DNA from: Alphaproteobacteria bacterium
Lineage (GTDB): Bacteria; Pseudomonadota; Alphaproteobacteria; Puniceispirillales; Marisalimonadaceae
Reading direction: 5' to 3'
Length of the DNA: 64,000 nt
Assembly: GCA_004213885.1 (NCBI GenBank)
Contig: SGYL01000003.1
Span: forward strand, 1-64,000
The translations under genes were made by a program, and so were the position numbers. Under the pieces are notes generated by a model, which saw nothing but the letters and a program-made list of their open reading frames with translations, made no database searches and was not told where the DNA came from. Below are positions 33,581-59,637 of this stretch, one piece after another. How positions within the stretch are numbered: position 1 is the first letter of the stretch; each line of letters begins with the position of its first letter.

Positions 33581-36500
33581 ATGTCTAGTTTATTTGAAAT
33601 TGGAAAATCAGGTGTTCAAGCATATCGTCAGGCTTTATCTGTAACGGGTCAAAATATTGCTAATGTTAATACTGACGGTTATAACAGAAGAGCTGCTGAT
33701 CTCGAGGAGGTTCCAAGTGTTCAAGGTGGAGTAACCAATGTACCTGATCAATCTGGTTTAGGAGTACGAGTTAACAAAATAAGGCGCTCTTTTGATGCTT
33801 TTCTTTCATCAAATCTTAGAGATAATAATGCAGAATATACAAAATTAAAAAAATACGTAGATAACTTAAATAAATTAGAAAATATGTTATTACCAAGTGA
33901 TAGCGATTTAGGAAAATTTATTGGACGTTTTTTTAATTCTTTACAAGATGTATCTTCACGACCTGACGACATTTCATCTAGATCTATCGTAATTGAAAAT
34001 GGAAAAGCTTTAGCAAATTCTTTTAATAATTATGATATGCAATTGAAATCATTTCAATCAACTGCAAGTAAAGAAACTGAAACAAATTTATCAGAGTTAA
34101 ATGAAACTTTAAAACAACTAGCCCAAGTTAATAAATTAATCATGAGTGGAGGTTCAAAAAACTCATCTCCAGACATATTAGATGCGAGAGACCAATTATT
34201 ATCAAAATTATCAAATTTAATTGATTTTTCAGTAGATTATGGAAAAAGTGGAGAAGCAAAAATCACATCGGGTAGTTCTGGAAATGGAAAACTATTACTT
34301 GAAGATACTAACTTTTCAATTTTAACTCATACTATACAAGAAAATAAAATAGTTTTTAATGTCAATAGAGATGCAAAAACTAGTTCTTTAAATAGTTTTT
34401 CTTCAGGAATTTTAAGTGGAATAAAAAATTTTTATGACTTTTCTTCAGATGTTCAATCAGAAATAAATGATCTTGCAAGAAGAGTTGCTAGAGATTTTAA
34501 TGAGATTCAAAAAATTGGGATTGATTTAAATGGAAAAATAGGTTCATCAATGTTTTCTATCAATTCGATGGAAGCAAAAGTTAATGGAAATAATAATTCT
34601 AACTTTAATGTAGAATTAATCATTAGCGATGAAGATAAAATCAGTCAGGAAGATTTGAATTTTAAATTCATTTCTTCTTTAAATTCATGGCAAGTAGCTT
34701 CATCAAGTGGTATTAAAAATTATAATGCAGATAATTTAAGTTTTAATGGATTTAAATTAAAAATAGATGGTATTCCAAGTGATGGAGATCAGTTTTATTT
34801 AAGGCCAGCATTATCAAATGCTTCTGCTTTTTCTTTTTTATTAAATGACCCAAAATCAATTGCAGCAGCATCTAAAAATTTAATTTCAGCTTCACTTGAA
34901 AATACAAGTAAAGCTGAGCTTAAAATAATAGGAAATGAAGTTGAAAATAAGAATAATCAAATTGCTAAAATTAATGATGTTTTTAGTTCTTCGACCAATC
35001 CACTTCTAGCTTCGGAGTTCCTAAAAGACGGGGCTATTGCAACAATTCCAAGCAATTCTAATGAAATCAAAATTTCATCTTTATTGAAACAATCATCTGC
35101 AACATTTGGTATTTATGATAGTCAAATAAAAGGTTTTTCAAATATTTCTATTAATTTGTCTGATGGTAGTAGCATAAATTTAACATCAGCTGTTGAAGAT
35201 CCAGGCGATGGAATTAAATCAGTTCATGAATTAGCAAATATGTTAAATTCAGGCTTATTACTTGATGGTTTAAGTCAACACAATTTTAGGAAATTTGGTT
35301 TGTTTGCATCTGGGGCTGATGGTGGTCTAACGATTTCCTCATCAAATTCTTCTGTGTCCTCTGCATCCATTTTGTCCAATGGTAATACTTATACAGCATC
35401 AATTTCAGACATACCTTCTGACAAAGCAAAGGCTAGTGAGATTCAAATTTTTACAAGAGATGGACGACATATCAGTGGAAAATCATTAGATGCATCACAA
35501 ATAGCGTCACTTTTTAAAGAAAGTAATGGTTTTTTGAAAAATGCTGAGTATAGAAATGATTATTTAAATACGAATTATAGAGGAATTGAAAGTAATAGGG
35601 TAAGTGTAACCGGAGACCACATTTATGACTTTGGTACTAATATAAGTTATGATAAACAAGCAACCGATGAAGATGGATTATTTACAAATAAAAATGCACA
35701 GTCTTTATCTGGAGCTCTTGTACTTGATGGAGAATTAGCAAACTCTAATGACATTGATGGTTATATAACCATAACTAATTCATTAAATGATACTTCTATA
35801 AATTATACTATTAAAGGTTATGATCAAGATGGTAACTTTCAAACAGAAACGCTTCCCGGGGGAAGTGAAGCACAAGTTACTGGGAATAAAATTTTTAAAT
35901 CAATCTCTTCTATTACATCTAGTGGAAATGGTGCTGGGGACTTAAAAATTGGGATCAAATCTGCTGGTTTTACTCTTAAAGTAGAAAACAACAATGGAAA
36001 TATTTCTAGTTCAACTATGCCAGTTAATGCCTCTGCTTATTATATGGCAGATAAATTAACTAATGATCTGGCAGGAACTGGAATACAAGCAACTGCGTCA
36101 AATAGGGTTATGTTAGGTCCATTATCTTCTGATACAAATGGATTAATGTCATTTAAATTGAAAGGCAGTAATTTCGATCCAGTAACTATATCTGCTAATA
36201 TTTCACAAGATGATTTATCAAACTTAGCGAGAGTTATTAATCAATATTCAACTCAAACAGGTATAAATGCTTACTCTACAGAGGATTTTGATCGAATTGT
36301 TTTAGAATCAAATGTTGGTTATGACATAGAATTAACTGAAATAAGTTCACCTTCGGATTTCAAGATATATTCATTAAATCAAGATTTTGAAAGAATAAGC
36401 GATCGTCATTTTATAGATGTTTCAGAAAGTTCAAAAAGATCTGCTTATATTAATGGAACAATTAGATTTTCATCAACATCAGATTTTACAACTCAAATTG

Positions 36501-39500
36501 ATAACGGGATCTTAAATTCATCTCAATTAGATGAAAAAACAAATGGCTTTTACAACATAAATTATAATTCAACTGGAGAAAAAATTACTGTAAATCCGAT
36601 TTCACTTGAACACTTAGATGATAGTGTTTCAGGTCCAAATGGAAAAAAATCTCAATCAGGAAAAGCAACATATGGATTAAGCATTCCTTTGGCAGGCTAT
36701 AGAGTTGAAGTGACGGATGATGATAGCTTATATACTCAAGCAAGCCCTGCGGGTACAGGCACAAAAAGTTTTTCAGGTGGGTTTCTAAAAGATAGCTCAA
36801 ATTTAAACTCAACTATCGTGTTAACTTGTCTTGGAGATGAAAGCGCAAATACTTTTACTATAAGTGGAACAGATTATGATGGAAATACTGTTTCTGAAAC
36901 TTTAAATGGTGTGAATAATGGTGTTATAAAAGGTGTTCAACTATTTAAATCTGTTACTTCATTTTCTCTTTCAAACGCTGTAAGTGGAAATATTAAAATA
37001 GGAACTGATGGTCGCCATAGGGTAAATGATGATGATTCGATACTTACTCAAAATACATATACTTCAAATACCTATACAACCTCTTCGACACCTGCCTTAA
37101 ATGGAATACTGTCATCTTCAACCTATTTAGGTGCAAAGTTAACAATTCAAAACTTTGAAGATGAAAGAAATAATACTTTCACGGTAACAGGATATAATTT
37201 AGATGGTGATGTAATAACAGAACAAATAAAAGGTACAAATGGAACTTTATCTATGGGAGAAAAAGTTTTTAAAAGTATTACTTCAGTAGCAATAGCAAAT
37301 AACACGTCTGGTTCAATTAAAATTGGAACAGTTGCCGCAGAGGATTTTTGGAAAGCTAATATAGATGCAAATGCTTTAAATTTGTCAACATCATCGGAAA
37401 TATCTCAATCACTTCTCAATAAAATCAGAGAAGAAGCGCCTACTTCAAAGATAGAAGGTTCTGTGATTAGTAACTTACCTATTGACGATTCAGAACTAGA
37501 TGTTGTTTTTGAAGGACAAACATATTCCTTAAAAATGACTTCAGGTGAATTACTTGTAGATGGACCTGAAGAAAATAGAGTAAAAGCAAAATTTGAAGAA
37601 ACATCAAATATTTCTGAAAATTCTATTGCATTATCCCAACTAGGGTCTGCTGGAGTAAATTTAACTTTGAATGGTAATAGTGCAACTTCTACATTTGCAG
37701 GTACAAGAGTTTCGATTACTTCAGTTGAAGATGAAAGTTTGAATAGTTTTACTGTTTCTGGAACTGATTTGAATGGTAATGCAATTACAGAAAAAATAAT
37801 AGGATCAACCGCAGGTAATACTAATTCAGGTTTAAAAATATTTAAAACAATTACTTCAATTCAACCAAGTTCAAATACTGCAGGTAACATACAAATTGGT
37901 ACAGCAACAGCCTATAAATTAATTGTCATTGCAGAAGGGACTATTGAAGGTGACCAATTTGACTTAGTTCAAGATACACAAAATTTGTCTTCAGCTTCAA
38001 ATTTTGGAATATCTGATGGAACAACCTCATTAATTGGTAATTTAGCTCTGAAACCAACTGAAAATGATACTTCCTTTAGAATTAACATTGAAAATAATGA
38101 TTTAATTAACGATTTCAATGTTAAGTTTTTAAGTGATAGTAGTGAAACTTCTTTATTAACAAGCTCTGCAATCTCTAGTACAGCAGACTTATTTGGAGGA
38201 ACACCTAGTACAACTCTTCTTGGAGGAAAAATTAATATTAAGACGGCAACATCTGGAGATAGAACTGGTGTAAATTTCACAGTGGTTGGAAGAGATATGA
38301 GTGGTAATGAAATTACTGAGGTTATTACAGGTGCAATTGGAGGAGAAACAGCTAAAGGATCAAAAATTTTTAAAACGGTTACATCAATAACACCAAGTGC
38401 AACAACTGGATCTGGTAATATTGAAATAGGGCACGAAAGTCAGCCAGTGTTCTTTAATGTGTCTAATGAACAAAGTCTATTTTCATCAAAAATAATGACT
38501 ACAAATACAAGTTTAGGAACTCCAAAAACTCATAGTCAGGTTGGAGGTAAAGTTAAAATATTTACTGCCTCTGGAGGAGATCATTCAATTACTAAATTTA
38601 CTATTGTAGGAACTGACTATAAAGGTGATGCTTTAACAGAAGTTATTGAAAATGGACCATTAAGTGGAAAAGCAGTTGTTGGAGGCAAAATATTTAAAAC
38701 AATAAGTTCTATTACACCTCAGCCTATTTCAGAAATAGTGACATCTGCAAACGTATCAATAGCAAATGATACCATTACAATCTCTAATCATATGTTATCT
38801 ACAGGATCAAAAATAACTTATTCGAACGGAAGTGCTGCTGACATTACTGGTTTGTCAAACAATACTGATTATTATGCAATTGTAATAGATGCAAATACAA
38901 TAAAACTTGCAAGTTCACTTGCAAATGCAAACTCTAACAACTCAATTTCACTAACAGGTACTGGAAATAATAATCAAACTTTTACTAGGGATGTTATTGG
39001 TACTGGTTCAGTAGATATTGATTTGGTAATTACAACAGATGCAAGTTTAAATCCACCAAGTGATATTACAGTAAGTTGGACAGACGATGCTTCTGGGACT
39101 ACTGATGATGATGGTTTATTTCAAAGTGCGGCCGTTTCTGGAAGTCCACCTTCAAAATTACAATTAAATGGAGTATTAACTTCACAAGATACCGATAGTT
39201 TGTATGCCACAAAGACAGGTACTTCTGGATTATTAAATTTAGATGGTGCCTTAAAAAATAATAAAGAATTAAGAGCTGTCGTTCAAATCGCTTTTTCTGG
39301 GGCAGAAACAGGTAAAACATTTACTGTTGCTGGATATGATTTGGATGGAATTTATAAAACAGATGTAATTAATGGTCCAAATAGTGCTTCTACAATCGAG
39401 GGATCTGTGCAATTCAGAGAAGTTATTTCTATAACTGCATCAAGTGCTACAGCTAACAATATTCAAATTGGAACAAGAGCAGAATCAGCAAATGTAAATG

Positions 39501-40540
39501 GATCTGTGATATCTATAACATCCTCTGGTGATGAAAGTAATAATGAGTTTACAATTGTTGGCAAGGATATGTTCGGAAATGATCAAACAGAGATTATGAT
39601 GGGTGGTAATGCAACATCTGTAAATGGAAAAAAAGTTTTTAAATCAATAACATCAATTACTCCGTCATCAGCTACAGGTGTAAATACTATAAAAGTTGGA
39701 ACTATTTCAACAGGAAGATTTTCTATATCCCATGAAATAGGAAAATCTAACTTTTCAATTGATAGAAATCCTAATGTTCAAGATGTTTATGGTATTAAAA
39801 CTCAAAGGACTAGAGCAATTATTAATGACGGGAAGATAGAACTTAACTCATTGAATGGACGACCTATATCAGTCGATATACCAGCAGGTTCAACATCCAA
39901 TGTAGTTTCTGAACAAATATCTATTTCAAACCTTCCTAATGAAGAACTCATAGCTGTTGTAATGGGTGGTGGAGCAAGAAGGATTAATGCAGAATTTAAT
40001 TTTGTTAATGACAATCATATTAAAGAAGAACCAGAGTATGAAATAAAAATTGACAAAACTAATAAAAATAAAATTGAAATATTTGATAAAGAATTTGGCC
40101 ATTCTATTTCTACTAGAATTTTAGACAATGCAAGATCTTTTGAAGCTATTGGATCAAGATTCCAATTCTCTGATGAAGCATTAATTGGCGAGAGTTTTTT
40201 GATTAGCAATAATAACTCAGGTTCGGGTGATAACAGAAATATAAATAATATGTTGGATTTACAATCTGATAAAATACAATCTAAGGGAAAAGGAAATTTT
40301 CAACAAATTTTTTCTAATACTGTTGCTAAAGTTGGCAGTAGTGTTCAAACAAATAAATTATCTTTAACTGCAGCGGAAGCTAACAAAGATGCTGCAGAAA
40401 GTGCTTTAAGCGAATTTTCAGGTGTTAGTTTAGATGATGAGGCAGCTCATTTATTGGAGTTTCAGCAAGCTTATCAAGCATCGGCACGATTATTGCAAAC
40501 TGCAAGAGAATTATTTCAATCATTAATTGAAGTAGTCTAA
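33581..40540 (+). CDS. flgK: FlgK, hook-filament junction protein 1, giant form with repeats
   Basis: 2319 aa, several times the usual 450-1000. The ends are canonical. The N terminus has SVTGQNIANVNTDGYNRRAA, VRVNKIRRSFDAFL and DISSRSIVIENGKALANSFN. The C terminus has NKLSLTAAEANKDAAESAL, SGVSLDDEAAHLLEFQQAYQ and ASARLLQTARELFQSLIEVV. The 1600-residue insert carries about eight copies of a module whose core reads FTIxGxDxxGNxxTEVIxG, then KxFKxITSITPSS and a final IxIGT. Several copies are preceded by a DDDGLF...LDG segment. The frame is uninterrupted, so it is not an assembly of pseudogene pieces. Stop at 40540; flgL follows by 15 bases. Confidence 0.95.
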   Translation: MSSLFEIGKSGVQAYRQALSVTGQNIANVNTDGYNRRAADLEEVPSVQGGVTNVPDQSGLGVRVNKIRRSFDAFLSSNLRDNNAEYTKLKKYVDNLNKLENMLLPSDSDLGKFIGRFFNSLQDVSSRPDDISSRSIVIENGKALANSFNNYDMQLKSFQSTASKETETNLSELNETLKQLAQVNKLIMSGGSKNSSPDILDARDQLLSKLSNLIDFSVDYGKSGEAKITSGSSGNGKLLLEDTNFSILTHTIQENKIVFNVNRDAKTSSLNSFSSGILSGIKNFYDFSSDVQSEINDLARRVARDFNEIQKIGIDLNGKIGSSMFSINSMEAKVNGNNNSNFNVELIISDEDKISQEDLNFKFISSLNSWQVASSSGIKNYNADNLSFNGFKLKIDGIPSDGDQFYLRPALSNASAFSFLLNDPKSIAAASKNLISASLENTSKAELKIIGNEVENKNNQIAKINDVFSSSTNPLLASEFLKDGAIATIPSNSNEIKISSLLKQSSATFGIYDSQIKGFSNISINLSDGSSINLTSAVEDPGDGIKSVHELANMLNSGLLLDGLSQHNFRKFGLFASGADGGLTISSSNSSVSSASILSNGNTYTASISDIPSDKAKASEIQIFTRDGRHISGKSLDASQIASLFKESNGFLKNAEYRNDYLNTNYRGIESNRVSVTGDHIYDFGTNISYDKQATDEDGLFTNKNAQSLSGALVLDGELANSNDIDGYITITNSLNDTSINYTIKGYDQDGNFQTETLPGGSEAQVTGNKIFKSISSITSSGNGAGDLKIGIKSAGFTLKVENNNGNISSSTMPVNASAYYMADKLTNDLAGTGIQATASNRVMLGPLSSDTNGLMSFKLKGSNFDPVTISANISQDDLSNLARVINQYSTQTGINAYSTEDFDRIVLESNVGYDIELTEISSPSDFKIYSLNQDFERISDRHFIDVSESSKRSAYINGTIRFSSTSDFTTQIDNGILNSSQLDEKTNGFYNINYNSTGEKITVNPISLEHLDDSVSGPNGKKSQSGKATYGLSIPLAGYRVEVTDDDSLYTQASPAGTGTKSFSGGFLKDSSNLNSTIVLTCLGDESANTFTISGTDYDGNTVSETLNGVNNGVIKGVQLFKSVTSFSLSNAVSGNIKIGTDGRHRVNDDDSILTQNTYTSNTYTTSSTPALNGILSSSTYLGAKLTIQNFEDERNNTFTVTGYNLDGDVITEQIKGTNGTLSMGEKVFKSITSVAIANNTSGSIKIGTVAAEDFWKANIDANALNLSTSSEISQSLLNKIREEAPTSKIEGSVISNLPIDDSELDVVFEGQTYSLKMTSGELLVDGPEENRVKAKFEETSNISENSIALSQLGSAGVNLTLNGNSATSTFAGTRVSITSVEDESLNSFTVSGTDLNGNAITEKIIGSTAGNTNSGLKIFKTITSIQPSSNTAGNIQIGTATAYKLIVIAEGTIEGDQFDLVQDTQNLSSASNFGISDGTTSLIGNLALKPTENDTSFRINIENNDLINDFNVKFLSDSSETSLLTSSAISSTADLFGGTPSTTLLGGKINIKTATSGDRTGVNFTVVGRDMSGNEITEVITGAIGGETAKGSKIFKTVTSITPSATTGSGNIEIGHESQPVFFNVSNEQSLFSSKIMTTNTSLGTPKTHSQVGGKVKIFTASGGDHSITKFTIVGTDYKGDALTEVIENGPLSGKAVVGGKIFKTISSITPQPISEIVTSANVSIANDTITISNHMLSTGSKITYSNGSAADITGLSNNTDYYAIVIDANTIKLASSLANANSNNSISLTGTGNNNQTFTRDVIGTGSVDIDLVITTDASLNPPSDITVSWTDDASGTTDDDGLFQSAAVSGSPPSKLQLNGVLTSQDTDSLYATKTGTSGLLNLDGALKNNKELRAVVQIAFSGAETGKTFTVAGYDLDGIYKTDVINGPNSASTIEGSVQFREVISITASSATANNIQIGTRAESANVNGSVISITSSGDESNNEFTIVGKDMFGNDQTEIMMGGNATSVNGKKVFKSITSITPSSATGVNTIKVGTISTGRFSISHEIGKSNFSIDRNPNVQDVYGIKTQRTRAIINDGKIELNSLNGRPISVDIPAGSTSNVVSEQISISNLPNEELIAVVMGGGARRINAEFNFVNDNHIKEEPEYEIKIDKTNKNKIEIFDKEFGHSISTRILDNARSFEAIGSRFQFSDEALIGESFLISNNNSGSGDNRNINNMLDLQSDKIQSKGKGNFQQIFSNTVAKVGSSVQTNKLSLTAAEANKDAAESALSEFSGVSLDDEAAHLLEFQQAYQASARLLQTARELFQSLIEVV
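35759..39708 (+). repeat. about eight copies of a phage-like module inside flgK
   Basis: Approximate copies: 35759-35970, 36810-37011, 37131-37338, 37702-37910, 38221-38449, 38540-38730, 39270-39486, 39500-39708. Shared core: a strand ending xIxITS, FTIxGxDxxGN, TExIxG, KxFKxITSIT, and IxIGT. The same module appears twice in fliD and twice in the minus-strand flagellin. Copies differ enough that they are not recent DNA duplications. Confidence 0.85.
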
Positions 40541-42466: not shown

Positions 42467-42850
42467 TCACTTTATACTTTTCCAGCCATCTAGTATTTCA
42501 CTTATTATATCAATGACTTTAAAAATAGCTTCAAAATCATTTTTTGAAAAACTTTTTATTATTGTAGTTTTACAAAAATCATATAATTCAAATAAGTTTT
42601 GAGCAATATCACCACCTGATTTAAAATCTAAACTTGATTGTAAAATATAAATAGCTGTTAAGGATTTTGAAAAACATTTTGATTTAGCCTCAGGCATATG
42701 GCCCTTATCTTTTAAACAATATGCTAAAGTAGATAAATTCTTTTTCAGCTCTATAAGGATTTGTTCAATGACACCATGTGGATTATTATTTTCAACTTTT
42801 TGATTTATATCATTTTGCAAATAATTTTGAATAGGTAGAGAGTGGTTCAT
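42467..42850 (-). CDS. fliS: FliS-like flagellin export chaperone (copy 1)
   Basis: A 127-aa helical protein matching FliS: NPHGVIEQILIELKKNLSTL, FSKSLTAIYILQSSLDFKSG, GDIAQNLFELYDFCKTTI, and the ending EILDGWKSIK. FliS binds flagellin C termini in the cytosol. A second, homologous copy is at 60127-60573. A FliA-type promoter lies upstream. Confidence 0.8.
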   Translation of the reverse strand: MNHSLPIQNYLQNDINQKVENNNPHGVIEQILIELKKNLSTLAYCLKDKGHMPEAKSKCFSKSLTAIYILQSSLDFKSGGDIAQNLFELYDFCKTTIIKSFSKNDFEAIFKVIDIISEILDGWKSIK

Positions 42851-43358: not shown

Positions 43359-44255
43359 TTATTTAACTTCAAATCTATCACCTATTTTTAATTTTCCATC
43401 ATATGTATATTCGGTAACTTTTATAAAACTATCTTGGGTCTTAACTATAAAACCATCTGGTTTTATGTTTATAATCGCACCAACTATACATTTATAAATT
43501 GGTGCGTTTTTAATGTGTTCTACCTTATTAATTTTCATTGCCTTTTTGTTGATAAACGTTCTGGCTAAAGGGCCTGGACTACAGATCGCCCTTACAAAAT
43601 TAAATATTTCTCTGCTTGTTTGGTTCCAATTTAATGTATTATCACCTATATTTCTTTTTGAACAATAAAAACCTGTAGGATGTATTTCATTTTGTTTTTT
43701 AGCTTTTACAGGGCCATCTTTAAACATTAGTATTGCATCATATAAAATATTGGCACAGCCGACATAAGCTCTTTCAAGAAGAGTCTTATAATTATCTTGA
43801 TCTGAAATTTGATAAATTTTTTGTAGAATAATATCTCCGGTATCTATCCCATCATCAACATAATGGACAGTAATGCCAAATTCTTTTTCATCATTTATCA
43901 ACGCCCAATTTAGAATACTTCTCCCTCTATAAAATGGTAATTTACCTGCATGACAATTTATAGTGTTGTATTTGGCTAATTTAATGATTTTAGTTTTAAA
44001 GATTTGGTCAAAGGACATTGAAACAAATAAATCACAATTATATTTTTCTATAGTCGCAACAAATTTATCAGAATTAATGTTTCTATGCTTTAAGTAATCA
44101 ATACTATATCGCTTTGCATAATTTTTTAAAGTCTCATCTTTAGTGTCAAATTTAACGCATATGAATGATATTTTAATATCAGAGTCATGTATTAATTTAT
44201 CAAAAGTTTTATGGCTCCATGGACCGTCTGCAAAATACCCAATATTCAATTTCAT
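43359..44255 (-). CDS. formyltransferase family protein (probable sugar N-formyltransferase)
   Basis: About 298 aa. The start at 44255 is chosen because it forms an ATGA overlap with the upstream gene; an ATG at 44273 is the alternative. The catalytic formyltransferase core is clear: TINCHAGKLPFYRGRSILNW (Asn-x-His) and GITVHYVDDGIDTGDIILQ (Asp). The C-terminal part (GDNTLNWNQTSREIFNFVRA) has the FMT C-like domain. It is not the housekeeping methionyl-tRNA formyltransferase by context: it lies with an aminotransferase and flagellar genes, so formylation of an amino sugar for flagellin glycan is likely. Confidence 0.85.
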   Translation of the reverse strand: MKLNIGYFADGPWSHKTFDKLIHDSDIKISFICVKFDTKDETLKNYAKRYSIDYLKHRNINSDKFVATIEKYNCDLFVSMSFDQIFKTKIIKLAKYNTINCHAGKLPFYRGRSILNWALINDEKEFGITVHYVDDGIDTGDIILQKIYQISDQDNYKTLLERAYVGCANILYDAILMFKDGPVKAKKQNEIHPTGFYCSKRNIGDNTLNWNQTSREIFNFVRAICSPGPLARTFINKKAMKINKVEHIKNAPIYKCIVGAIINIKPDGFIVKTQDSFIKVTEYTYDGKLKIGDRFEVK

Positions 44256-44464
44256 TTGGTTATCATCGAGCAAGGAATGTTTATAAGTTTCTCTTTTAAA
44301 AACTTTATAATCTCTAAATTAATTATTTGACAGTCTTTAAATACCTCTAACACATTAATTAAATCCCGCAAAGGAACTCTCATTATACGCTGAGAATTAA
44401 TTTCATTTAATACATGTATCTTACTGTCTTTTATTGAATAGTCTAAAAACGTTCCAATTTGCAT
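44252..44464 (-). CDS. hypothetical 70-aa protein, coupled to the formyltransferase
   Basis: Unrecognised small protein with a beta-rich start (MQIGTFLDYSIKDSKIHVLN) and a helical end (LINVLEVFKDCQIINLEIIK). Its stop overlaps the formyltransferase ATG (ATGA), so the two are translated together. Possibly a small subunit or accessory protein. Confidence 0.55.
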   Translation of the reverse strand: MQIGTFLDYSIKDSKIHVLNEINSQRIMRVPLRDLINVLEVFKDCQIINLEIIKFLKEKLINIPCSMITK

Positions 44465-44609
44465 ATACTCTCATTTTCTTTAAGCAGAAATTAATAATCT
44501 GTCTGTTTAATTTTTGTTTGCACATCTTATTTCAAAATAATTAATTTAAGAAAAAACTTTTTCATCTTAATTTGTTTATTAAATTCATACTTTATATTTT
44601 TAAAATTAA

Positions 44610-45761
44610 TTAATTTATAATTTGATTACTTAATGTTTTAACTCTTGAGGCAATATGCTCACAATTTTTCTCATTTAACCACCATCCACATGGTAAAGAG
44701 ATTTGATGATCACTAAACTCTTCTGTTCCAGGAAGTTGTGTGTTGGAATCTTCAAATGCATTATATTTATGATTTGGAATGTGAACTAACCCTGCGGCAA
44801 TTCCTTCTGAAATTAATTTTTCTAATAATATATCTCTTTTATTTCTATCACCTTTAAATAAACATGTGTAAACCCAGTAAGAAGAAGTTGACTTCTCAGG
44901 AAGTTTAATTGTTTGAATTATATTGGATTTTTTAAATGCTTTTTCATAAACATTGGCATTTTTTTTATTTTTATCGATAAGTTTATCTATATAATTTAAT
45001 TGTACAAGTCCAATCGCTGCAGAAATGTTATTCATATTGAATTTATAACCAACATAATCTTTATCAATATCTGCATCCCATCTTTGACCTTTCCATTCTC
45101 CTTTTTTATCTTTTATATTATCTCTGTCATAGCCAAACCATTTTAATTTTTTAGCAGATAAATAGTCGTTTTTATTTTTACATATTAATGCGCCACCATC
45201 ACCTGTTGTTAAATGTTTAATTGCTTGAAAAGAATAAGTAGTAAAATCTGCAAAATAAGATAAATCTTTACCTTTAAATTTGGAACCAAAAGCATGAGCT
45301 GAGTCTTGAATAATTTTAATATTATATTTTTCTCCAATTTCAGAAATTTTTTCTAATTCAGCTGGGTTTCCTCCCCAATTAACAAAAGAAATAGCACAAG
45401 TTTTATCATTTATTTTTTTTATTATATCATTGGGGTCAATTGCACCAGTTTCAGGCTTAACATCTGACCAAACAATTTTACCACCTAGATTAATTACTGG
45501 CGTGTTTGATGCTACACAAGTCATTGAAGTACATATTACTTCTTTACCAGGTTTTACACCTGCTAATCTATAAGCAATTGTTAAAGCACTTGTACATGAG
45601 TTTAGTAGTACTAAGTTTTTAACGTTCAAATATGATGAGAGTTTTTTAGAAAATTTATCAACTTCTATACCTTCATTTAAAAAACCAGAAGCCAAAACAG
45701 ATTTAATTTTTGTTAAAACCTCATCAACTGGCATATGAACTTTAAACATAGGGTATTGCAT
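44610..45761 (-). CDS. DegT/DnrJ/EryC1/StrS family sugar aminotransferase
   Basis: A 383-aa PLP enzyme that aminates a nucleotide keto-sugar. SCTSALTIAYRLAGVKPGKE, QDSAHAFGSKFKG, the PLP-lysine segment SFQAIKHLTTGDGGALICKN, and GYKFNMNNISAAIGLVQLNY are all conserved. With the formyltransferase downstream and the TPR-glycosyltransferase upstream it forms a flagellin-sugar cassette. A sigma-54 promoter lies 70-95 bases upstream, an uncommon regulation for a sugar gene and a strong link to the flagellum. Confidence 0.9.
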   Translation of the reverse strand: MQYPMFKVHMPVDEVLTKIKSVLASGFLNEGIEVDKFSKKLSSYLNVKNLVLLNSCTSALTIAYRLAGVKPGKEVICTSMTCVASNTPVINLGGKIVWSDVKPETGAIDPNDIIKKINDKTCAISFVNWGGNPAELEKISEIGEKYNIKIIQDSAHAFGSKFKGKDLSYFADFTTYSFQAIKHLTTGDGGALICKNKNDYLSAKKLKWFGYDRDNIKDKKGEWKGQRWDADIDKDYVGYKFNMNNISAAIGLVQLNYIDKLIDKNKKNANVYEKAFKKSNIIQTIKLPEKSTSSYWVYTCLFKGDRNKRDILLEKLISEGIAAGLVHIPNHKYNAFEDSNTQLPGTEEFSDHQISLPCGWWLNEKNCEHIASRVKTLSNQIIN

Positions 45762-45840
45762 AAAAAAAATCTCATAAATCTCAAATTAAAAATAATTAAT
45801 TTAAAATATTTTAATTACTTTAATAATCTTAAGTATAGCG

Positions 45841-45857
45841 TGCAAAAAAAATGCCAG
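45841..45857 (-). promoter_or_regulatory. sigma-54 promoter of the aminotransferase operon
   Basis: The minus strand reads TCTGGCATTTTTTTTGCAC, with GG at 45855-45854 and GC at 45843-45842, 10 bases apart. Confidence 0.7.
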
Positions 45858-45943
45858 ATGGAACTTGATTTTACGATTTTTTATAATTTAGTTATTTTAA
45901 ATGACAAAAAATAACAAAATAAGTTGAATTAATATAAATAAAT

Positions 45944-48439
45944 TTAATTAACTTTTTTTGAGTATATTTTTTTAAAAGCATCTTCAAGATGTTTACAATA
46001 TAGTTTGGTGTTAAACAAAACTGAATTTTGTGAATTTTTCTCAAGTTTCTTTTTTAAAAAACTTAATAATTTTGGATCTTTAGCAATTTCTATAGCTATC
46101 TTTACATATTCTTTATGTGATTTTGCAATTAATTCATTTAGATCTAAAGCATTTAGAACACTTGCTGCAACTCTGCTTACAAAAGAATTTCCAATATATG
46201 TTAATACAGGTACACCCATTCTTACTGAATCACTAGACGTAACTCCTCCATTACAAGGAAAAGTATCTAACGAAAGATCCATTAATTTTAATCTAGCTAA
46301 ATGTCTTGAAGATTCCATGTTTTCTACAAAAATCAATCTATTTGGATCAATTCCTCTTAATTTTATTTCATTCTTCAAATTTTGAATTGTTGTCTGATTT
46401 TTCGAGATTAACACTAAAACACTTTTCTTGACTTGATTTAATATTTTGGCCCATAGGTCAAAAGCTTCAGGCGAAATTTTGAATGAATTGTTAAATGAGC
46501 AAAAAACAAAGGCCTCATCAGGTATACCAAAATCTTTTTTGGTCATTATTTCTGTTGAAACTGGTTTCTTTGTCTCATTGGCTTGCCAACTAGGTAAATA
46601 TAAAATATCTTCACGATAATATTTTTTATGTGTTTCTGGTATTATAGTTTTGTCTGCAATTATGTAATCATAATAATTAGTCCCCATTGTTCCTGCATAA
46701 AGAAAGGTTGCCTGAATGGGGGCGGCAGACATTGCAAAAATATTTGTTCTATGTCTTGCTGTATAACAACATAAATCAACAGCTATATCAATTTTTTCGT
46801 TATTAGATAATGCTACTGCTGATTTATCAGTATAATTTGCAATATTATGAAATTTATCAACTCCTTTTTTTATTCTAAAATATTCCTTATCTTGTGTGTC
46901 TCTTCCAAAGTAAAATGCATGTACTTCAAATTCTTCTCTATTATGAGTTTCAAATAATTCGGAAACAGAATATGCAATAGGATGTTGACGAAAATCAGGA
47001 GAAAAATATCCTATTTTAATTTTATTACTCTTATTGATAATTCTATGTTTATTGACAATAAAATTTTTAGGAAATTTTTTTGAGTAGATTTCAGCATTTT
47101 CTTTTTGTATTTTAGGATTGTCAATTAATGAAATTAAAGGAAATGGAGTGATCACTTTTTCTTTATTATTAATTTTTTTTATGATTTTATCAATTTTTTC
47201 TTTGCGATCTGTCCAGTCACAAATTCTTGCTTTTGAGAACAACGATATGCCCATTAAATCGTCAATTGTATCATCAAGTCTTAGAGCATTATCATAATTA
47301 TAAACTGCTTTTTCGTTATGCTGATGATCATAATATAGGTTGCCTAGATTGAAATAAGCTTGAGCGCACTTTGGATCAATATTTAGAGCTTTTTCAAAAG
47401 ATGCTTCAGCATGAGCTTCTAATTCGAATTTTCTATAAACATGTCCTAGATTGTTATAAGCTTCAACTTGCTTAGGATTTAACTCAATAGATTTATTATA
47501 ACTTCTTATAGCAAGTGCGTCTTTGTCTAATTTCTCAAGTATATTTCCGTAATTTAAATGTATTTTTGCTGATAATGGATTAATTTCTATGGCCTTTAAA
47601 AATGCGGTTTCAGCATCTTCAAATTTTGATTGTTTTTGATATGCATCTCCAAGATAACATAAAAGCTGTGCATCATTAGGGTTTAATTGAATTAATTTGT
47701 GACATTCAACTAATATTTCTTCTGTTTTATTTAACTTTTGGAGTATTGATAAGAAATTTAAATATGAGGAAGAATTTTGAGGATTGATTTCATATGCATT
47801 TCTATAAACTTTCTCTGCTTTTATGAAATCTTTTTTTGCAGTTAAAATGAATCCTATATTATCAAGAACTTTAACATTATTGGGATCTAAATTGATTAAT
47901 TTATTATATATAGAAAGTGCAGCGTTTAGGTTATTTGATTTGTGATAGGATGACCCTAGTACTTTTAGACAATTGATATCATTCGGATTATCATTTAAAA
48001 TTGAAGTTGCTAACTTTTCAACTTCTTCATATTGATTATTTTTATAAAGATTGATTAACTCGTTTATTTTATTTTCTTCACCTAAATTTTGGATTTTTTG
48101 GTAAAAAGAATTAATCTCATTTTGAGATAATCCAAATGATTTACTTTTCTCTATTATAAGTTTTGCATTTTCTACATCTTTTAAATTAATAAGATTAGAA
48201 ATATAGCTAATCCAAAATTGTTTTATTTTTGGATTACTTTTTAAAGCACTCTCAAAAAATTTCTTTGCTTCAAAATGGTTATTTAATGATGTTTCTAAGA
48301 CACCAAGGTTATGATTGGCATCTGATTGATTAGGAAGAGTTTTTAAAATTAGTTTATAAAAATGTTTTGCTTTTTTTAAATTTCCTTTTTTAAAAGCTAA
48401 ATTTCCTTTATTTAGAATTTGAGATGATGAAAGTGGCAT
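45944..48439 (-). CDS. TPR protein with C-terminal O-GlcNAc transferase (GT41)-like domain
   Basis: 831 aa. Residues 1-420 are tetratricopeptide repeats at 34-residue spacing (such as AKIHLNYGNILEKLDKDALA and AEAYNNLG-type units). Residues about 455-831 form a SPINDLY/OGT-like GT41 catalytic domain: KIKIGYFSPDFRQHPIAYSV, EKIDIAVDLCCYTARHRTNI, FCSFNNSFKISPEAFDLWAK, and DLSLDTFPCNGGVTSSDSVR. In alphaproteobacteria such proteins (compare FlmG) glycosylate flagellin. It has its own sigma-54 promoter. Confidence 0.9.
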   Translation of the reverse strand: MPLSSSQILNKGNLAFKKGNLKKAKHFYKLILKTLPNQSDANHNLGVLETSLNNHFEAKKFFESALKSNPKIKQFWISYISNLINLKDVENAKLIIEKSKSFGLSQNEINSFYQKIQNLGEENKINELINLYKNNQYEEVEKLATSILNDNPNDINCLKVLGSSYHKSNNLNAALSIYNKLINLDPNNVKVLDNIGFILTAKKDFIKAEKVYRNAYEINPQNSSSYLNFLSILQKLNKTEEILVECHKLIQLNPNDAQLLCYLGDAYQKQSKFEDAETAFLKAIEINPLSAKIHLNYGNILEKLDKDALAIRSYNKSIELNPKQVEAYNNLGHVYRKFELEAHAEASFEKALNIDPKCAQAYFNLGNLYYDHQHNEKAVYNYDNALRLDDTIDDLMGISLFSKARICDWTDRKEKIDKIIKKINNKEKVITPFPLISLIDNPKIQKENAEIYSKKFPKNFIVNKHRIINKSNKIKIGYFSPDFRQHPIAYSVSELFETHNREEFEVHAFYFGRDTQDKEYFRIKKGVDKFHNIANYTDKSAVALSNNEKIDIAVDLCCYTARHRTNIFAMSAAPIQATFLYAGTMGTNYYDYIIADKTIIPETHKKYYREDILYLPSWQANETKKPVSTEIMTKKDFGIPDEAFVFCSFNNSFKISPEAFDLWAKILNQVKKSVLVLISKNQTTIQNLKNEIKLRGIDPNRLIFVENMESSRHLARLKLMDLSLDTFPCNGGVTSSDSVRMGVPVLTYIGNSFVSRVAASVLNALDLNELIAKSHKEYVKIAIEIAKDPKLLSFLKKKLEKNSQNSVLFNTKLYCKHLEDAFKKIYSKKVN

Positions 48440-48471
48440 TATAAAAATTATTTTTAAATTGTTAAAAATCT

Positions 48472-48488
48472 AGCAATATTGATACCAA
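48472..48488 (-). promoter_or_regulatory. sigma-54 promoter of the TPR-glycosyltransferase
   Basis: The minus strand reads TTGGTATCAATATTGCTA, with GG at 48486-48485 and GC at 48474-48473. Predicted start near 48461. Confidence 0.72.
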
Positions 48489-48498
48489 TAATAGCCTA

Positions 48499-49095
48499 TT
48501 ACCCAAATTGCACCCAACCTGTTGCGATATACTTGCATCCTTGTTTTACTATGCTTCCGGAATGGGCATGTGTCCATTCGGCAGGCCAAATTATTGTTTT
48601 TCCTTTTTGGGGTTTTATATTTATATCATAATAATGGAATGCTGTTTCTCCACCTTCTTTAACATCGTTTAAATAGGTCATAAAGGCTAAAACTCTGTGC
48701 ATTGTAGCATAACTACCTCTTTCAGTATGAACAGCGCTGAAGTGCCCCCCAGGAGCATATTTTTGTAAATTGAAAGTACCTATTTCCATGCCTTTAATTG
48801 TATTTAAGAAAGGCCATTGATCTTTATAATCATTAAAACAATTTATAACATTATTTATGTAAATTTTAAAAATTTTATATTTTTCTTCTTCAAGTTGTTT
48901 TGGTTTAATTGGAATATCTGTTGTTTTTTTTTGACTTTCATCTACTCCTCCACCAATAGTTCCAGCACCTTGTTCAATTGGATTTTCTTCAAAAAAATTT
49001 ACAATTTCATCACACATATCTGTATTTTCAAGCAACCAAGAGCCAATAAAATTTGGTGTATTTGAGTTATTTGAAATTTCAATTCTTTGCATCAT
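48499..49095 (-). CDS. 2-oxoglutarate/Fe(II) oxygenase (prolyl-4-hydroxylase-like)
   Basis: A 198-aa oxygenase with the double-stranded beta-helix core. Candidate iron ligands are the histidine and glutamate of HFSAVHTERGSYATMHRV and the distal histidine in TIIWPAEWTHAHSG. The sequence YLNDVKEGGETAFHYYDINI is the family's conserved loop, and a lysine after the last His (KQGCKYIATGW) would bind 2-oxoglutarate. The iron motif is H-x-E in place of the more common H-x-D. It lies 28 bases downstream of the TPR protein gene and before the TPR-glycosyltransferase, so it may hydroxylate a flagellar protein or a sugar. Confidence 0.85.
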   Translation of the reverse strand: MMQRIEISNNSNTPNFIGSWLLENTDMCDEIVNFFEENPIEQGAGTIGGGVDESQKKTTDIPIKPKQLEEEKYKIFKIYINNVINCFNDYKDQWPFLNTIKGMEIGTFNLQKYAPGGHFSAVHTERGSYATMHRVLAFMTYLNDVKEGGETAFHYYDINIKPQKGKTIIWPAEWTHAHSGSIVKQGCKYIATGWVQFG

Positions 49096-52469: not shown

Positions 52470-55076
52470 ATGGCAGTAGATTATTTAAGTGCTCTAAATA
52501 CTAAAGGAAGTGGTTTAAATATTACTCAAATTGTAGATAGTTTGGTTAATGCTGAAAAAATTCCACAAAGCGAGCTTATAAATAAAAAAATTAATGAAAA
52601 AAATACTTCAATATCAGCTATTGGAGAAATAAAAAGTGCAATGTCAAACTTTTCTTCAACTGTAAAAGCTTTGAAAGGTGCAACAGCATATAACCCTTCA
52701 TCTAATAGTTCATCATTATCTATAAGCATAACAGACTCAGCCAAAGCAAGATCTCTTAATTCAAGCGTAAATGTGACTTCGTTGGCTGCAGGGCAAACTT
52801 TAGCTTTTACAGGGTTTTCTTCAACAACTTCTGCCGTAGGGGCCGGTTCATTAACTCTACAAAGAGGTGATTGGTCGTCAGGAAGTTTTGTATCAAGGTC
52901 GACCGTCTCATCTCAAGTACTGAATGTATCTGCAACTGATACATTGGCATCATTGCGTGATAATATAAATGCAATGAATTATGGTGTTACAGCAAGTATT
53001 TTAGGTTCTGGTGATGGTACATATAATTTAGTTTTAAAGTCTGAAACTGGTTCTGAGAACGCTCTTAGAATAACAGCGACTGAAACTCCATCAGGCTCTG
53101 GTCTTGCTGCTATAGATAACACAACCACAAATGGTTCAAAACAAACTATTGCGGGAAGTAACGCTACAATAGTTGTTGATGGCATGACATTAACAAGAAC
53201 CTCAAATACTATCACAGATTTATTTGATGGATATGAAGTGAATTTAATAAGTACAACTTCATCAGCCGCAAAATTAACATCATCAGTTGATGTTGAAACA
53301 GCAAAAGTTAATATGAATGCTTATATCGATTCAATTAATACTTTGAAAAAAATATTTAATGAAAAAACATTTAGAGGATCTTCAACTCAAGAAGCAGGAG
53401 AGTTGTCTTCCGATAGTGTCATTAACGGAATTAAAAAACAAATTGATCTTTATTTATCAAATGGTTTACCTGGATTTGGTGAGAATAGCCTGTACTTATC
53501 AAATTTAGGAGCACGTACAGAAAAAGATGGTACTTTATCCTTAAGCTCATCTTTATTTGAAAAAGAAATTAAAAATAATCCATCAACGTATGATGCTATT
53601 TTTAATTCAACTTATTCTTCTTCTTCAACTTTACTTTCAGTTTCAGGAGGAACAAACAAACCGCCTAAAGCTGGAAGTTATGCTTTTGAAATGACGGCAT
53701 ATGTCGCAGGAGCTTTGACAGGATTGAATAGCACAGATAGCACTCCAGAGGTAACTAGCTCAAACAATACAATCCAAGTCACAGTTGATGGTGTGTCTAC
53801 AGGAGTATTGACTATACCAGCTTCACATTATTCTTCTCAAGGAGCTCTAGCAACGGCTATTCAAACAGCAATAAATAGCGACTCTAATTTAACATCAGTT
53901 GGAAATTCTGTAATAGTTTCTTATGAAAATGGAAGTTATACAATAAAATCAGCTTCGAAAGGTGCTTCTACTTCTGTAGTTTTAGATGCTATAGGGACAA
54001 ACTTAGATGGTTTTTTGAAAATGAATGGCTCTGCAGACGCAGATGATATTGGTTCTTCTCAAACAGGCACTGCAAGTACAGCTATTACATTTAATGGATC
54101 ATCCTCATTTATTACATCAACAGATGCAGATGGTCTTGTTGACGCAGAGAGTATAGTAGGCGCTGGTGATTTAACTATTGATGGTAGTCAAGACTCTCTT
54201 GCATCAAGCGGATTAAATTCATTCATTACAATTAATAGTACAAATAATCTGTCTGGAGTTCAATTTTCAATTACAGGAACTGATATTGACGGAAACGCAA
54301 TCTCAGAAGTTATTACTGGTCCAACTGCAGGTGCAACTGTGACATCATCAAATATATTTCGTACAATTACCAAAATTGAAACAGATGGATCAGCAAGTTC
54401 AGTAAATGTAGGAACAAAATCTGTTTTTGTAAATTTAGAAGGGAAAAGGGCAAGCATTACAAGTGCGGGAGGAAATGAAAGCTCAGTATCTTTTACAGTT
54501 TTAGGAACTGATATGAATGGAAATGCTCAAACTGAAGTCATCACAGGTCCAGCGGCAAGTGCTACAGTCATAGGATTAAAGACTTTTAAAACAATTTCAT
54601 CGATTACACCAGATACAAATACGTCAGGTTCAATTACATTAGGTTATAGTGGAGTAGGGATTACAACTGATGGTGTTACAGGATCAGCTACTCTTAATAC
54701 TGTAGCTATGGTTGCTGATGTTACAAATAATATTTTTTCAATGTCAACAGGTGATGCTGCAGGTTTAAAAGTCCAATATTCTGGACTTGGGGCAAATGCA
54801 TCAGTTTACTATGGTGAAAGTTCAGTCGACATATTGACGTTTTATATTGATGACATTTTATCTTCTTCAAATAGTTTAATATCGGATAGATTAACAAGAT
54901 TAAATAAAGATTTAGTTTCACAAAATACAATGTTAAGTGATCTTGATAGTCAATATGAATCAATACGAGATAGGTATATGGTTCAATTTACAGCTATGGA
55001 ACAAGCCGTAACAAGTTTAAAGTCAACAGGTGATTACTTAACTAATTTATTCAAAGCAATGAATAAAGATGATTAA
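52470..55076 (+). CDS. fliD: FliD, filament cap protein, enlarged
   Basis: 868 aa, against a usual 450-700. The N-terminal FliD region has GSGLNITQIVDSLVNAEKIP and KISAIGEIKSAMSNF-like helices; the C-terminal region has LTRLNKDLVSQNTMLSDLDS and RDRYMVQFTAMEQAVTSLKS. The insert holds a hook-like piece (VSTGVLTIPASHYSSQGALA) and, at residues about 584-729, two tandem copies of the module also found in FlgK and in one flagellin. GAGAAATAA precedes the ATG. Confidence 0.95.
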   Translation: MAVDYLSALNTKGSGLNITQIVDSLVNAEKIPQSELINKKINEKNTSISAIGEIKSAMSNFSSTVKALKGATAYNPSSNSSSLSISITDSAKARSLNSSVNVTSLAAGQTLAFTGFSSTTSAVGAGSLTLQRGDWSSGSFVSRSTVSSQVLNVSATDTLASLRDNINAMNYGVTASILGSGDGTYNLVLKSETGSENALRITATETPSGSGLAAIDNTTTNGSKQTIAGSNATIVVDGMTLTRTSNTITDLFDGYEVNLISTTSSAAKLTSSVDVETAKVNMNAYIDSINTLKKIFNEKTFRGSSTQEAGELSSDSVINGIKKQIDLYLSNGLPGFGENSLYLSNLGARTEKDGTLSLSSSLFEKEIKNNPSTYDAIFNSTYSSSSTLLSVSGGTNKPPKAGSYAFEMTAYVAGALTGLNSTDSTPEVTSSNNTIQVTVDGVSTGVLTIPASHYSSQGALATAIQTAINSDSNLTSVGNSVIVSYENGSYTIKSASKGASTSVVLDAIGTNLDGFLKMNGSADADDIGSSQTGTASTAITFNGSSSFITSTDADGLVDAESIVGAGDLTIDGSQDSLASSGLNSFITINSTNNLSGVQFSITGTDIDGNAISEVITGPTAGATVTSSNIFRTITKIETDGSASSVNVGTKSVFVNLEGKRASITSAGGNESSVSFTVLGTDMNGNAQTEVITGPAASATVIGLKTFKTISSITPDTNTSGSITLGYSGVGITTDGVTGSATLNTVAMVADVTNNIFSMSTGDAAGLKVQYSGLGANASVYYGESSVDILTFYIDDILSSSNSLISDRLTRLNKDLVSQNTMLSDLDSQYESIRDRYMVQFTAMEQAVTSLKSTGDYLTNLFKAMNKDD
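54220..54655 (+). repeat. two tandem phage-like modules in fliD
   Basis: Copies at about 54220-54423 and 54439-54655: FSITGTDIDGNAISEVITG and FTVLGTDMNGNAQTEVITG, each followed by an FKTISSIT-type strand and a final VGT/LGY. Same family as the repeats in flgK. Confidence 0.85.
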
Positions 55077-57264: not shown

Positions 57265-57286
57265 TAAGATTATTAATTGAACATTG

Positions 57287-57337: not shown

Positions 57338-57367
57338 CGTTTTAAATTTTAATGATAAATAAATATT

Positions 57368-57399
57368 AATAAGCCCCTAAAATTTAGGGGCTTATTTTT
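57368..57399. terminator. bidirectional terminator between convergent flagellins
   Basis: A near-perfect palindrome, AATAAGCCCCTAAA and TTTAGGGGCTTATT, with a T-run on the plus side. It lies just after the minus-strand flagellin stop. Confidence 0.75.
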
Positions 57400-57417
57400 G
57401 TGGAGGAACTGTTAAAT

Positions 57418-59637
57418 TTAATTCTGTAATAAAGTAAGAACGTTTTGTTGTATTCTTCCTGCCTGTGCAATCATTGCAAGAGCTGATTGTTGAAGTATTT
57501 GTGCTTTTGTTAATGCAGCAGATTCTTTTGCAAAGTTTGCATCTCTAATTCTTCCTCTCGATGCTTCAGTATTAACAGCAACGTTTGTCAAATTATCTAT
57601 GGCTTTTTCCATTCTACTCATTAATGCGCCAAGCTTAGCTCTTTCTAAGTGAATTCTATCTAGAGATCTGTCTATAACTCTAAGTGCATTGATTGATGCA
57701 TTTCTTGTTTTAACGTCAACTGTTTCTAACTTGTCAAGTGATGCTGCACCTGGAGAAGATTCAAATAAACTTTTTTCTTCTTCACCAAGAACAGTAAAAC
57801 TATTACTAGAATAAAATTCTAATTGTCCTGAAACTATTGCTGAATCAGCACCTTTCAGGCCAACAGTTATGGCTGCACTTGTATTACTGTCAGGTGTTAC
57901 TGAGAATATTGTACTAAATACTAGTCTGCCACTTGCTGTATTACCAGCTGTAGGGCCTTTAATAACCTCAGTTTGGGCATTACCATCCATATCATATCCG
58001 ACTACTGAGAATAATACTCCACTTTCGTCACCTGTAGAACTTGTGATTGTCACAAGAGATGATCTAGCATTAACGGCTTGTTCTATACCTGCTGAAATTG
58101 TACCAGCAAGTGCACCATCAACAGAAATCGAAGTTACACTTTTAAAAACTTTTGTACTTGTTACTGCAGCGGTATTACCCATTGGTACTTCTTCTGTTAC
58201 TGTGTTTCCATAAAGGTCTGTTCCGGTTATTGTTGCTTTTCGGGCAGAGTCATTACCACCTGAAGTTAAGGTAATTCTTGAATTTAAAGTTAATGAAGTT
58301 GCTCCAGTAACTAAAGCTAATGTATCTCCGCTTGTAAAACCACCACCAGCTTGACTTGCAGCTATAGATGCAGCCGCAGTTGTCGAAGCCTTGCCTGATG
58401 TATTAAGTGTCATTGCAGTTGCAGCAGTACCACTTGCAGAGGCGACTACATCATCTGTATCTGTAGTGACGGCAGCTTTATCTGATAACATAACAGAACT
58501 TCCTGCAGTAGCTTCATCATTATCTAAGCTTGTTACGACAAGAGCTTTTCTAGTTCCAGTTGTTGCTGTGTCACCTGCAAAATCTACGTCACCTAATTTT
58601 ATATCATAACCTTCATTTTGAACTAGAATAATATTAGTTGCATCAGCAGATAAAGTTGCAGTAATACCTGTAGTTGTAGAATAATTATTAACTGCATCCC
58701 TTAGAGCGGATAAATCAGATGTACCTGTTGTTGTTCCAAAGTTAATATTTGCTGAAACTGCTGTCGCTGTAGCATTTTTCCCTTGAATTGTAAATGCAAC
58801 ACTATTCAATCCTGTATTATCTGAACCAAAGGCTTTTGCTTCAATTTTTAATTGAGTTGATGCTAATGCATTTACTCCTGTTGTTTCAAAAGCATTATTT
58901 ACTAAAGTTGCAACATCTCTTATTGTTGAACCTGCAGTAGTAGTAAGAGTTTTGCTTCCAAGAAGACCATGGATTGTAAAACTTTCTTCTTGTACTAAAT
59001 TAGCATTACTTGCTGAATCTGTTGCATATGCATTTAATGCAAGATTATTAGCTGTGCTAGCACTACTTAGTCCACTAGTATTGTCTGTACCATATTCTCC
59101 ATCGGTTGTACTTGTTGTGACCTTAAATGCACCCAACGCACTTAATCTCATTGATGAAATTGAAAGTGTAGCAAATTCTCTTTCATGAACACCAATTTGA
59201 AATCTTCTATCTGCAAAAGTTCCATCTAATACAGCGATTTCATTAAAAGTTGTATCTCTTGTAACACGGTCATGTTCTGCTAGAAGTTGTTGAACTTCTG
59301 CATTTAGATAACTTCTTTCTTCTGCATTATATGAATCTGTCGCAGATTGGATAGCTAACATTCGAATTCTTTGAAGGATAGAAGATGTTTCATCAAGTGC
59401 TCCTTCAGTTACTTGTGCCATAGAAATAACATCAGCCGCATTCCTCGCTGATTGTTCTAAACCTTTTATCTGTGAAGTCATTCTGTCAGATATAGCAGCA
59501 CCTGCTGCGTCATCTCCAGCATGATTTATTCGTTTGCCAGAGGATAATCGTTCCATTGCAGTCGTTAAATCACGATCTGTTTTGTTCAGATTATTTAAAG
59601 CATACTTAGCAGCTATATTAGAATTAACTGTTGGCAT
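57418..59637 (-). CDS. fliC: flagellin 2, with phage-like modules
   Basis: 739 aa. The N terminus MPTVNSNIAAKYALNNLNKT, AMERLSSGKRINHAGDDAAG and the C terminus RGRIRDANFAKESAALTKAQ, ILQQSALAMIAQAGRIQQNV are flagellin D0/D1. The centre differs from flagellins 1 and 3 and includes two tandem copies (about residues 451-600) of the module also in FlgK and FliD. Base use in the central part (rich in GCA/ACT/GTT codons, higher G+C) differs from neighbours. It is expressed from a sigma-54 promoter, unlike the other flagellins, so it is probably made earlier. AAGGAG precedes the ATG. Confidence 0.96.
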   Translation of the reverse strand: MPTVNSNIAAKYALNNLNKTDRDLTTAMERLSSGKRINHAGDDAAGAAISDRMTSQIKGLEQSARNAADVISMAQVTEGALDETSSILQRIRMLAIQSATDSYNAEERSYLNAEVQQLLAEHDRVTRDTTFNEIAVLDGTFADRRFQIGVHEREFATLSISSMRLSALGAFKVTTSTTDGEYGTDNTSGLSSASTANNLALNAYATDSASNANLVQEESFTIHGLLGSKTLTTTAGSTIRDVATLVNNAFETTGVNALASTQLKIEAKAFGSDNTGLNSVAFTIQGKNATATAVSANINFGTTTGTSDLSALRDAVNNYSTTTGITATLSADATNIILVQNEGYDIKLGDVDFAGDTATTGTRKALVVTSLDNDEATAGSSVMLSDKAAVTTDTDDVVASASGTAATAMTLNTSGKASTTAAASIAASQAGGGFTSGDTLALVTGATSLTLNSRITLTSGGNDSARKATITGTDLYGNTVTEEVPMGNTAAVTSTKVFKSVTSISVDGALAGTISAGIEQAVNARSSLVTITSSTGDESGVLFSVVGYDMDGNAQTEVIKGPTAGNTASGRLVFSTIFSVTPDSNTSAAITVGLKGADSAIVSGQLEFYSSNSFTVLGEEEKSLFESSPGAASLDKLETVDVKTRNASINALRVIDRSLDRIHLERAKLGALMSRMEKAIDNLTNVAVNTEASRGRIRDANFAKESAALTKAQILQQSALAMIAQAGRIQQNVLTLLQN
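57840..58285 (-). repeat. two tandem phage-like modules in flagellin 2
   Basis: Copies at about 58285-58075 (ATITGTDLYGNTVTEEV) and 58065-57840 (FSVVGYDMDGNAQTEVIKG), each followed by a strand of the KVFKSVTSI type. The first copy is the closest of all to the phage form I recall. Confidence 0.85.

Follow-up and report, generated by a model that had tools for sequence, protein, structure and literature searches.

Modules homologous to marine phage proteins recur in the hook, junction, cap and filament proteins of a marine alphaproteobacterium

The window analysed here is a stretch of 64,000 nucleotides from contig SGYL01000003.1 (assembly GCA_004213885.1) which contains a flagellar gene cluster; it comes from a marine alphaproteobacterium of low GC content (30%). 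The source genome comprises 1.41 Mb and is 84% complete; the closest named relatives are single-cell genomes and metagenome-assembled genomes (MAGs) labelled SAR116, including SCGC AAA536-G10 and AAA015-N04. Four axial proteins of this cluster, the hook protein FlgE, the junction protein FlgK, the cap protein FliD and one of three flagellins, carry copies of three module families, here called M1, M2 and M3, that are homologous to phage proteins. We think it probable, with some reserve, that these are surface-display domains from a phage virion pool which were recruited into axial proteins, multiplied there and copied in blocks from gene to gene. The carrier proteins are the following:

25157..29797, + strand: FlgE-type hook protein, 1546 amino acids (aa); Pfam FlgE_D2, Flg_bbr_C and Flg_bb_rod above cut-off; carries four M2
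33581..40540, + strand: FlgK, 2319 aa; Pfam FlgK_D1, Flg_bbr_C and Flg_bb_rod above cut-off; carries eight M1 and one M3
52470..55076, + strand: FliD cap protein, 868 aa; Pfam FliD_N and FliD_C above cut-off; carries two M1
57418..59637, - strand: flagellin 2 (FliC2), 739 aa; Pfam Flagellin_N (6e-39) and Flagellin_C (1.6e-21) above cut-off; carries two M1

In the Pfam scan FlgK, FliD and FlgE showed conserved axial domains at both ends above the curated cut-offs. The modules are situated between the conserved terminal axial domains, and no Pfam model matched the M1, M2 or M3 stretches.

M1 is a module of about 80 residues. The original prediction had counted about twelve copies, about eight in FlgK, two in FliD and two in flagellin 2, and a hidden Markov model (HMM) built from the set recovers exactly these twelve:

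35738..35986, + strand: M1 FlgK copy 1; HMM 89 bits
36788..37036, + strand: M1 FlgK copy 2; HMM 93 bits
37112..37360, + strand: M1 FlgK copy 3; HMM 95 bits
37682..37933, + strand: M1 FlgK copy 4; HMM 100 bits
38204..38464, + strand: M1 FlgK copy 5; HMM 94 bits
38525..38794, + strand: M1 FlgK copy 6; HMM 80 bits
39254..39505, + strand: M1 FlgK copy 7; HMM 95 bits
39482..39733, + strand: M1 FlgK copy 8; HMM 92 bits
54198..54446, + strand: M1 FliD copy 1; HMM 85 bits; 42% identity over 108 aa to a viral open reading frame (ORF) in locus L384
54429..54677, + strand: M1 FliD copy 2; HMM 94 bits
58057..58302, - strand: M1 FliC2 copy 1; HMM 82 bits; 53% identity over 106 aa to capsid-adjacent viral proteins
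57826..58080, - strand: M1 FliC2 copy 2; HMM 100 bits

The copies are only 21–49% identical to each other and nevertheless score 79–100 bits, so they are diverged yet clearly homologous; since they also served as the training set of the HMM, their own scores are circular. When the window was scanned in all six frames, the best score outside the twelve copies was 4.7 bits, as compared to a maximum of 5.9 bits for shuffled ORFs. No further M1 was found in a search of the whole source genome, where the next match had E=0.19. Both M1 and M2 are confined to axial genes in this genome.

HMMs built from flagellar copies only, a check that had been proposed together with the original prediction, detect phage proteins. 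They score 43–49 bits on gp42 of the isolate pelagiphage HTVC023P (a Pelagibacter phage), a gene located two genes past the capsid gene. In one other alphaproteobacterium (G156) M1 occurs in a prophage near a terminase gene, and in a second one (G200) a weak M1 adjoins a capsid gene in a phage region. Viral relatives were collected with three seeds: gp42 (71 matches), the neighbouring M1 gene (100) and the prophage M1 gene (50). On these relatives the flagella-only HMM gave 262 M1 matches above 15 bits, located in over 200 viral-contig ORFs, with a maximum of 72 bits, while reversed sequences reached at most 9.9 bits. Viral loci selected by M2 did not contain M1, which indicates that the M1 signal is not a general trait of marine viral beta-proteins. 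Each of the twelve flagellar copies has its own BLASTP match to a viral ORF, and a profile-profile comparison of flagellar and phage M1 gave a probability of 98.5% (E 2.8e-15). The alignment of FliD copy 1 includes the upstream DADGL...LTIDG element. Both the core and the upstream element that had been described earlier are real, and the whole unit of about 110 residues aligns with phage proteins.

The proposed likeness to phage particle proteins is thus borne out as homology. The accompanying statement that such repeats are common in tailed-phage proteins applies to marine viral metagenome contigs, but not to isolate phage genomes as catalogued. The best-characterised carriers on these contigs are head-region genes beside the capsid gene; in loci L101 and L253 the gene order is capsid protein, an M1 protein of 313–319 aa, a second M1 protein of about 200 aa and a connector-like protein. 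Among 50,697 phage records, tblastn at E<=1e-3 did not find a match to M1 with the FliD double module, the consensus module or the prophage relative as queries, and only a relaxed limit pointed to HTVC023P; searches with single sequences hardly detect M1 in isolate phages. The FliD segment alone, used as seed against the viral contigs, also found no match. The tail fibre of S-RSM4 was tried as a further M1 carrier and rejected, as it showed a weak BLAST match only that the HMM did not confirm.

A structure predicted for two M1 modules had a predicted local distance difference test (pLDDT) score of 80. Searched against BFVD, the predicted fold matches phage proteins (best E 1.2e-9), and six matches in the phage library were found at E<=0.001; the template modelling (TM) scores against the two-module query were only 0.44–0.47. 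Against the PDB the model gave no match at E<=0.001. A model from the phage side (pLDDT 55) was of too low quality to draw conclusions from.

M2 lies in FlgE (27269–28162) outside the span covered by the original prediction, which also missed M3. The consensus of M2 reads TITVDSTxGFPDSGTLLIGTExITYTGKTDTTFTGLGRG.

27269..27451, + strand: M2 copy 1 in FlgE; alignment, PHROG virion families
27530..27706, + strand: M2 copy 2 in FlgE; alignment, PHROG virion families
27719..27898, + strand: M2 copy 3 in FlgE; alignment, PHROG virion families
27989..28162, + strand: M2 copy 4 in FlgE; alignment, PHROG virion families, IMG/VR matches up to 63% identity
38729..38995, + strand: M3 in FlgK, single copy; PHROG_32294 (baseplate wedge) 1e-12, 55% identity over 56 aa to the P-HM1 tail fiber protein

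M2 matches virion structural and baseplate wedge families of PHROG with E-values from 1e-25 to 4e-17. It shares 43% identity with cyanophage S-CAM1, and 258 matching stretches were found in IMG/VR, the best with up to 63% identity. M3 matches tail fibre proteins of the Prochlorococcus phages P-HM1, P-HM2 and MED4-213 at 46–55%.

On the bacterial side the two larger families are narrowly distributed. M1 was present in 31 of the 37 sampled genomes of the window's family (its own included, and several only 50–60% complete), in none of 24 genomes from other families of the same order, in 3 of 384 further genomes from across the Alphaproteobacteria and in one of 398 other genomes of a phylum-level sample. 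This last case is a 9496-aa open frame resembling a giant surface protein (L447, L448; G712:C2 at about 97.8–99.4 kb) with two M1 copies; one further M1 copy occurs in a sialidase-like exported protein. M2 was detected in 32 of the 37 family genomes; the 24 genomes of the order's other families did not contain it, nor did any further genome of the class sample. M3 is patchier. It was found in FlgE of two family members and of another family of the order, as well as in FlgK of MAGs with the label Rickettsiales or Alphaproteobacteria; the FliC2 orthologs of these MAGs do not carry M1. Orthologs of FliC2 outside the window's family do not carry the insert, and neither FlgL nor flagellin 3 contained a module in the genomes tabulated. 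Among the relatives we further noticed a non-flagellar protein of 452 aa with one M2 copy and no Pfam match (L372:4300-5655), and M2-bearing ORFs of about this size recur in genomes of genus g2.

The modules have been copied between axial genes. In the genome G035 a block of 647 nt with three M2 modules is 91.5% identical at the DNA level between flgK and fliC2, and in G013 a flgK-fliC2 block, again with three M2 modules, is 86.3% identical over 659 nt. Over the same block the flgK orthologs of G035 and G013 share 88.7%, less than the two genes within G035, an indication that copying or conversion took place around the time of the species split or later. (The records L302, L297 and L279 are apparently the same as G035, G013 and G024 and were not counted as independent.) In the M1 tree the second copies of FliC2 and FliD form a pair (Shimodaira-Hasegawa-like approximate likelihood ratio test (SH-aLRT) 90) and FliD copies from different genera group with different FlgK copies (SH-aLRT 93 and 95), and for M3 the FlgK copy of the window pairs with the FlgE copies of relatives (87). 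In addition, tandem duplications are visible within flgK and fliC2. FlgK copies at a given position tend to be orthologous across species, and much of the FlgK array is therefore old. The original prediction had proposed sharing among hook, cap and filament; sharing holds for the hook, junction, cap and filament proteins.

Purifying selection acts on the modules, with a weaker constraint than at the axial ends. In comparison to close relatives, the ratio of nonsynonymous to synonymous divergence (dN/dS) was 0.14–0.21 in the module regions of FliC2 and FliD and 0.01–0.06 in the axial ends where it could be estimated. None of the listed copies contains an internal stop, and the GC content of module DNA lies about 2–3 points above that of the remaining gene in each case. 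Synonymous divergence of FliC2 from close relatives is about 0.5 within its M1 region (57826–58302), as compared to 0.9 or more at the conserved ends, perhaps a trace of recombination.

Taken together, the following course of events would account for these observations. M1, M2 and M3 would be compact, beta-rich surface-display modules of a marine tailed-phage virion pool that were inserted into the hypervariable middles of FlgE, FlgK, FliD and flagellin in the SAR116-labelled family. Tandem duplication and block copying from axial gene to axial gene would have followed. The modules would be exported together with the axial protein to which they belong and, given what is known of the architecture of these proteins, form repeated outer bumps on hook, junction, cap and filament, and their phage homologues likewise probably decorate heads and tails. 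A move between phages and flagella in either direction had been suggested before. Judged from the sequences we favour transfer from phage to flagellum, because the phage side is broad while the flagellar side of M1 and M2 is a single family, because FliC2 orthologs from outside do not carry the insert, and because in the M1 tree FliC2 copy 1 is nested among phage proteins encoded beside the capsid gene (SH-aLRT 97).

Several observations weigh against a phage origin. Isolate phage genomes rarely carry M1, HTVC023P gp42 being the only case confirmed by HMM, and the location of the M1 phage proteins in the virion is deduced from gene order. The trees, built on 53–79 columns, do not separate the possible directions and numbers of entries, and the approximately unbiased (AU) test does not reject one common clade of the flagellar copies (p 0.46 for M1, 0.44 for M2 and 0.43 for M3). 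Finally, phages are not the only other home of M1, as the giant surface protein and the sialidase-like protein demonstrate, and a common pool is therefore possible. In this case extracellular repeat domains of bacteria in general, as in giant adhesins and exported enzymes, would form the pool from which phages and flagella drew independently, and phages would not be the donor. The 452-aa carrier of M2 would fit such a pool as well. However, host carriers are very rare (about 2 among some 780 other genomes), viral carriers are numerous, and the placement of FliC2 copy 1 among capsid-adjacent phage proteins argues for the phage side. We consider the general pool rather unlikely.

By gene order the phage homologues lie among structural genes for head and tail. 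With respect to function, the most straightforward interpretation is that the modules are displayed over and over on the surface of a helical or icosahedral lattice. Adhesion, glycan sites and phage mimicry had been named as possible roles in the original prediction. On the outer surface of the flagellum the modules may provide bulk or stiffness, bind particles or mediate adhesion, serve as a scaffold for O-glycans or take part in phage interaction. The third of these options can be put more strongly, namely that the modules are mainly a serine/threonine-rich scaffold which is O-glycosylated by a glycosyltransferase cassette of the same cluster:

43359-49095, - strand, between FlgL and FliD: formyltransferase, DegT aminotransferase, tetratricopeptide repeat (TPR) and Glyco_transf_41 (GT41) protein, 2OG-Fe(II) oxygenase

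This cassette probably serves flagellar glycosylation, and the modules are rich in serine and threonine. Flagellin glycosylation, however, occurs without modules of this kind, and we regard glycosylation as their main purpose as unlikely. A bolder proposal is that capsid-decoration and tail modules of phages were domesticated several separate times as an outer coat of the whole flagellum and were continually exchanged among axial genes, perhaps also with infecting phages, so that a virion-like surface chemistry would affect encounters with phages and particles. We put this forward tentatively and consider it doubtful.

The reverse transfer, in which phages of these bacteria acquired the modules from flagellar genes, is compatible with the trees since they are unrooted. 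It appears very improbable to us, as phage copies show a wider range and a greater diversity than flagellar ones, flagellar carriers belong to one family while viral carriers comprise a pelagiphage and contigs from many samples, and orthologous flagellins outside the family do not carry the insert. Convergence of unrelated low-complexity beta-strands, which the richness of the modules in T, S, G and V might suggest, is refuted by the reversed viral ORFs and the M2-selected loci without M1, by full-length alignments at 42–53% identity, by the profile-profile comparison and by a confidently predicted fold that matches phage proteins only.

Some further features of the cluster were noticed. Two FliS-type chaperones (42467-42850, - strand, and 60127-60573, + strand) lie in one cluster with three flagellins. 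Flagellin 1 matches phrog_16088 end to end; flagellins of this kind as phage genes were considered and rejected, as most of the matches among phage records are short contigs that have flagellin ends and no annotation. By eye, FlgE (aa 360–400 and 1215–1300) and FliD (aa 430–525) share a further element, in which IPxGxYxxxxLAxxLQxxIN precedes a beta stretch and which may be a unit similar to Flagellin_IN.

If a phage origin of M1–M3 is correct, these ocean bacteria would offer a concrete example of how phage particles and the surface of a bacterial organelle exchange parts. In the window's relatives, nature has also kept a record of blocks copied from one axial gene to another. M1 and M2 are module families without a related solved structure, and their structures and binding properties would inform the biology of phages and flagella alike.

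Compared with known systems, the closest likeness is to HTVC023P gp42 and the capsid-adjacent viral M1 proteins, which contain the same module according to HMM, BLASTP, profile-profile comparison and predicted fold. The phage proteins mostly have one module per short protein within a virion gene cluster, whereas the axial proteins of the flagellum have inserts of two to nine copies. Likewise, cyanophage baseplate wedge, virion structural and tail fibre proteins (PHROG 4406, 708, 2885 and 32294; S-CAM1, P-HM1, MED4-213) contain the same M2 and M3, there in a baseplate or fibre protein and here in FlgE or FlgK. The insertion of foreign domains in flagellin is already known: 61 domain families, including flagellinolysin, were found inserted in 26,587 flagellins, in the middle region that forms the filament surface (PMC5595980). 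Our case shares with these the foreign domain in the hypervariable, surface-forming part, but the scan found no peptidase family in the axial proteins, and the insert did not match any further Pfam domain. Here the modules are present in hook, junction and cap as well, and their source resembles phage virions, whereas the text of that study does not mention phage. Giant flagellins (PMC6248924) likewise have large exposed middle regions with internal repeats and occur in marine bacteria, and some flagellins of the window's family exceed 1000 aa; the inserts of giant flagellins arose by internal duplication, and phage is not mentioned in that text either. Also known are promiscuous phage display domains (PMC10385173), such as the Ig-like domains of T4 Hoc, described as promiscuous by Fraser et al. 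2006 as cited there. M1–M3 resemble them as beta display modules on phage particles but differ from them in that no Ig, Big or fn3 model of Pfam matches the modules, no significant PDB match was obtained and PHROG gave one weak "Ig domain" match (E 0.01). We found no openly licensed paper describing one set of phage-virion modules across FlgE, FlgK, FliD and flagellin.

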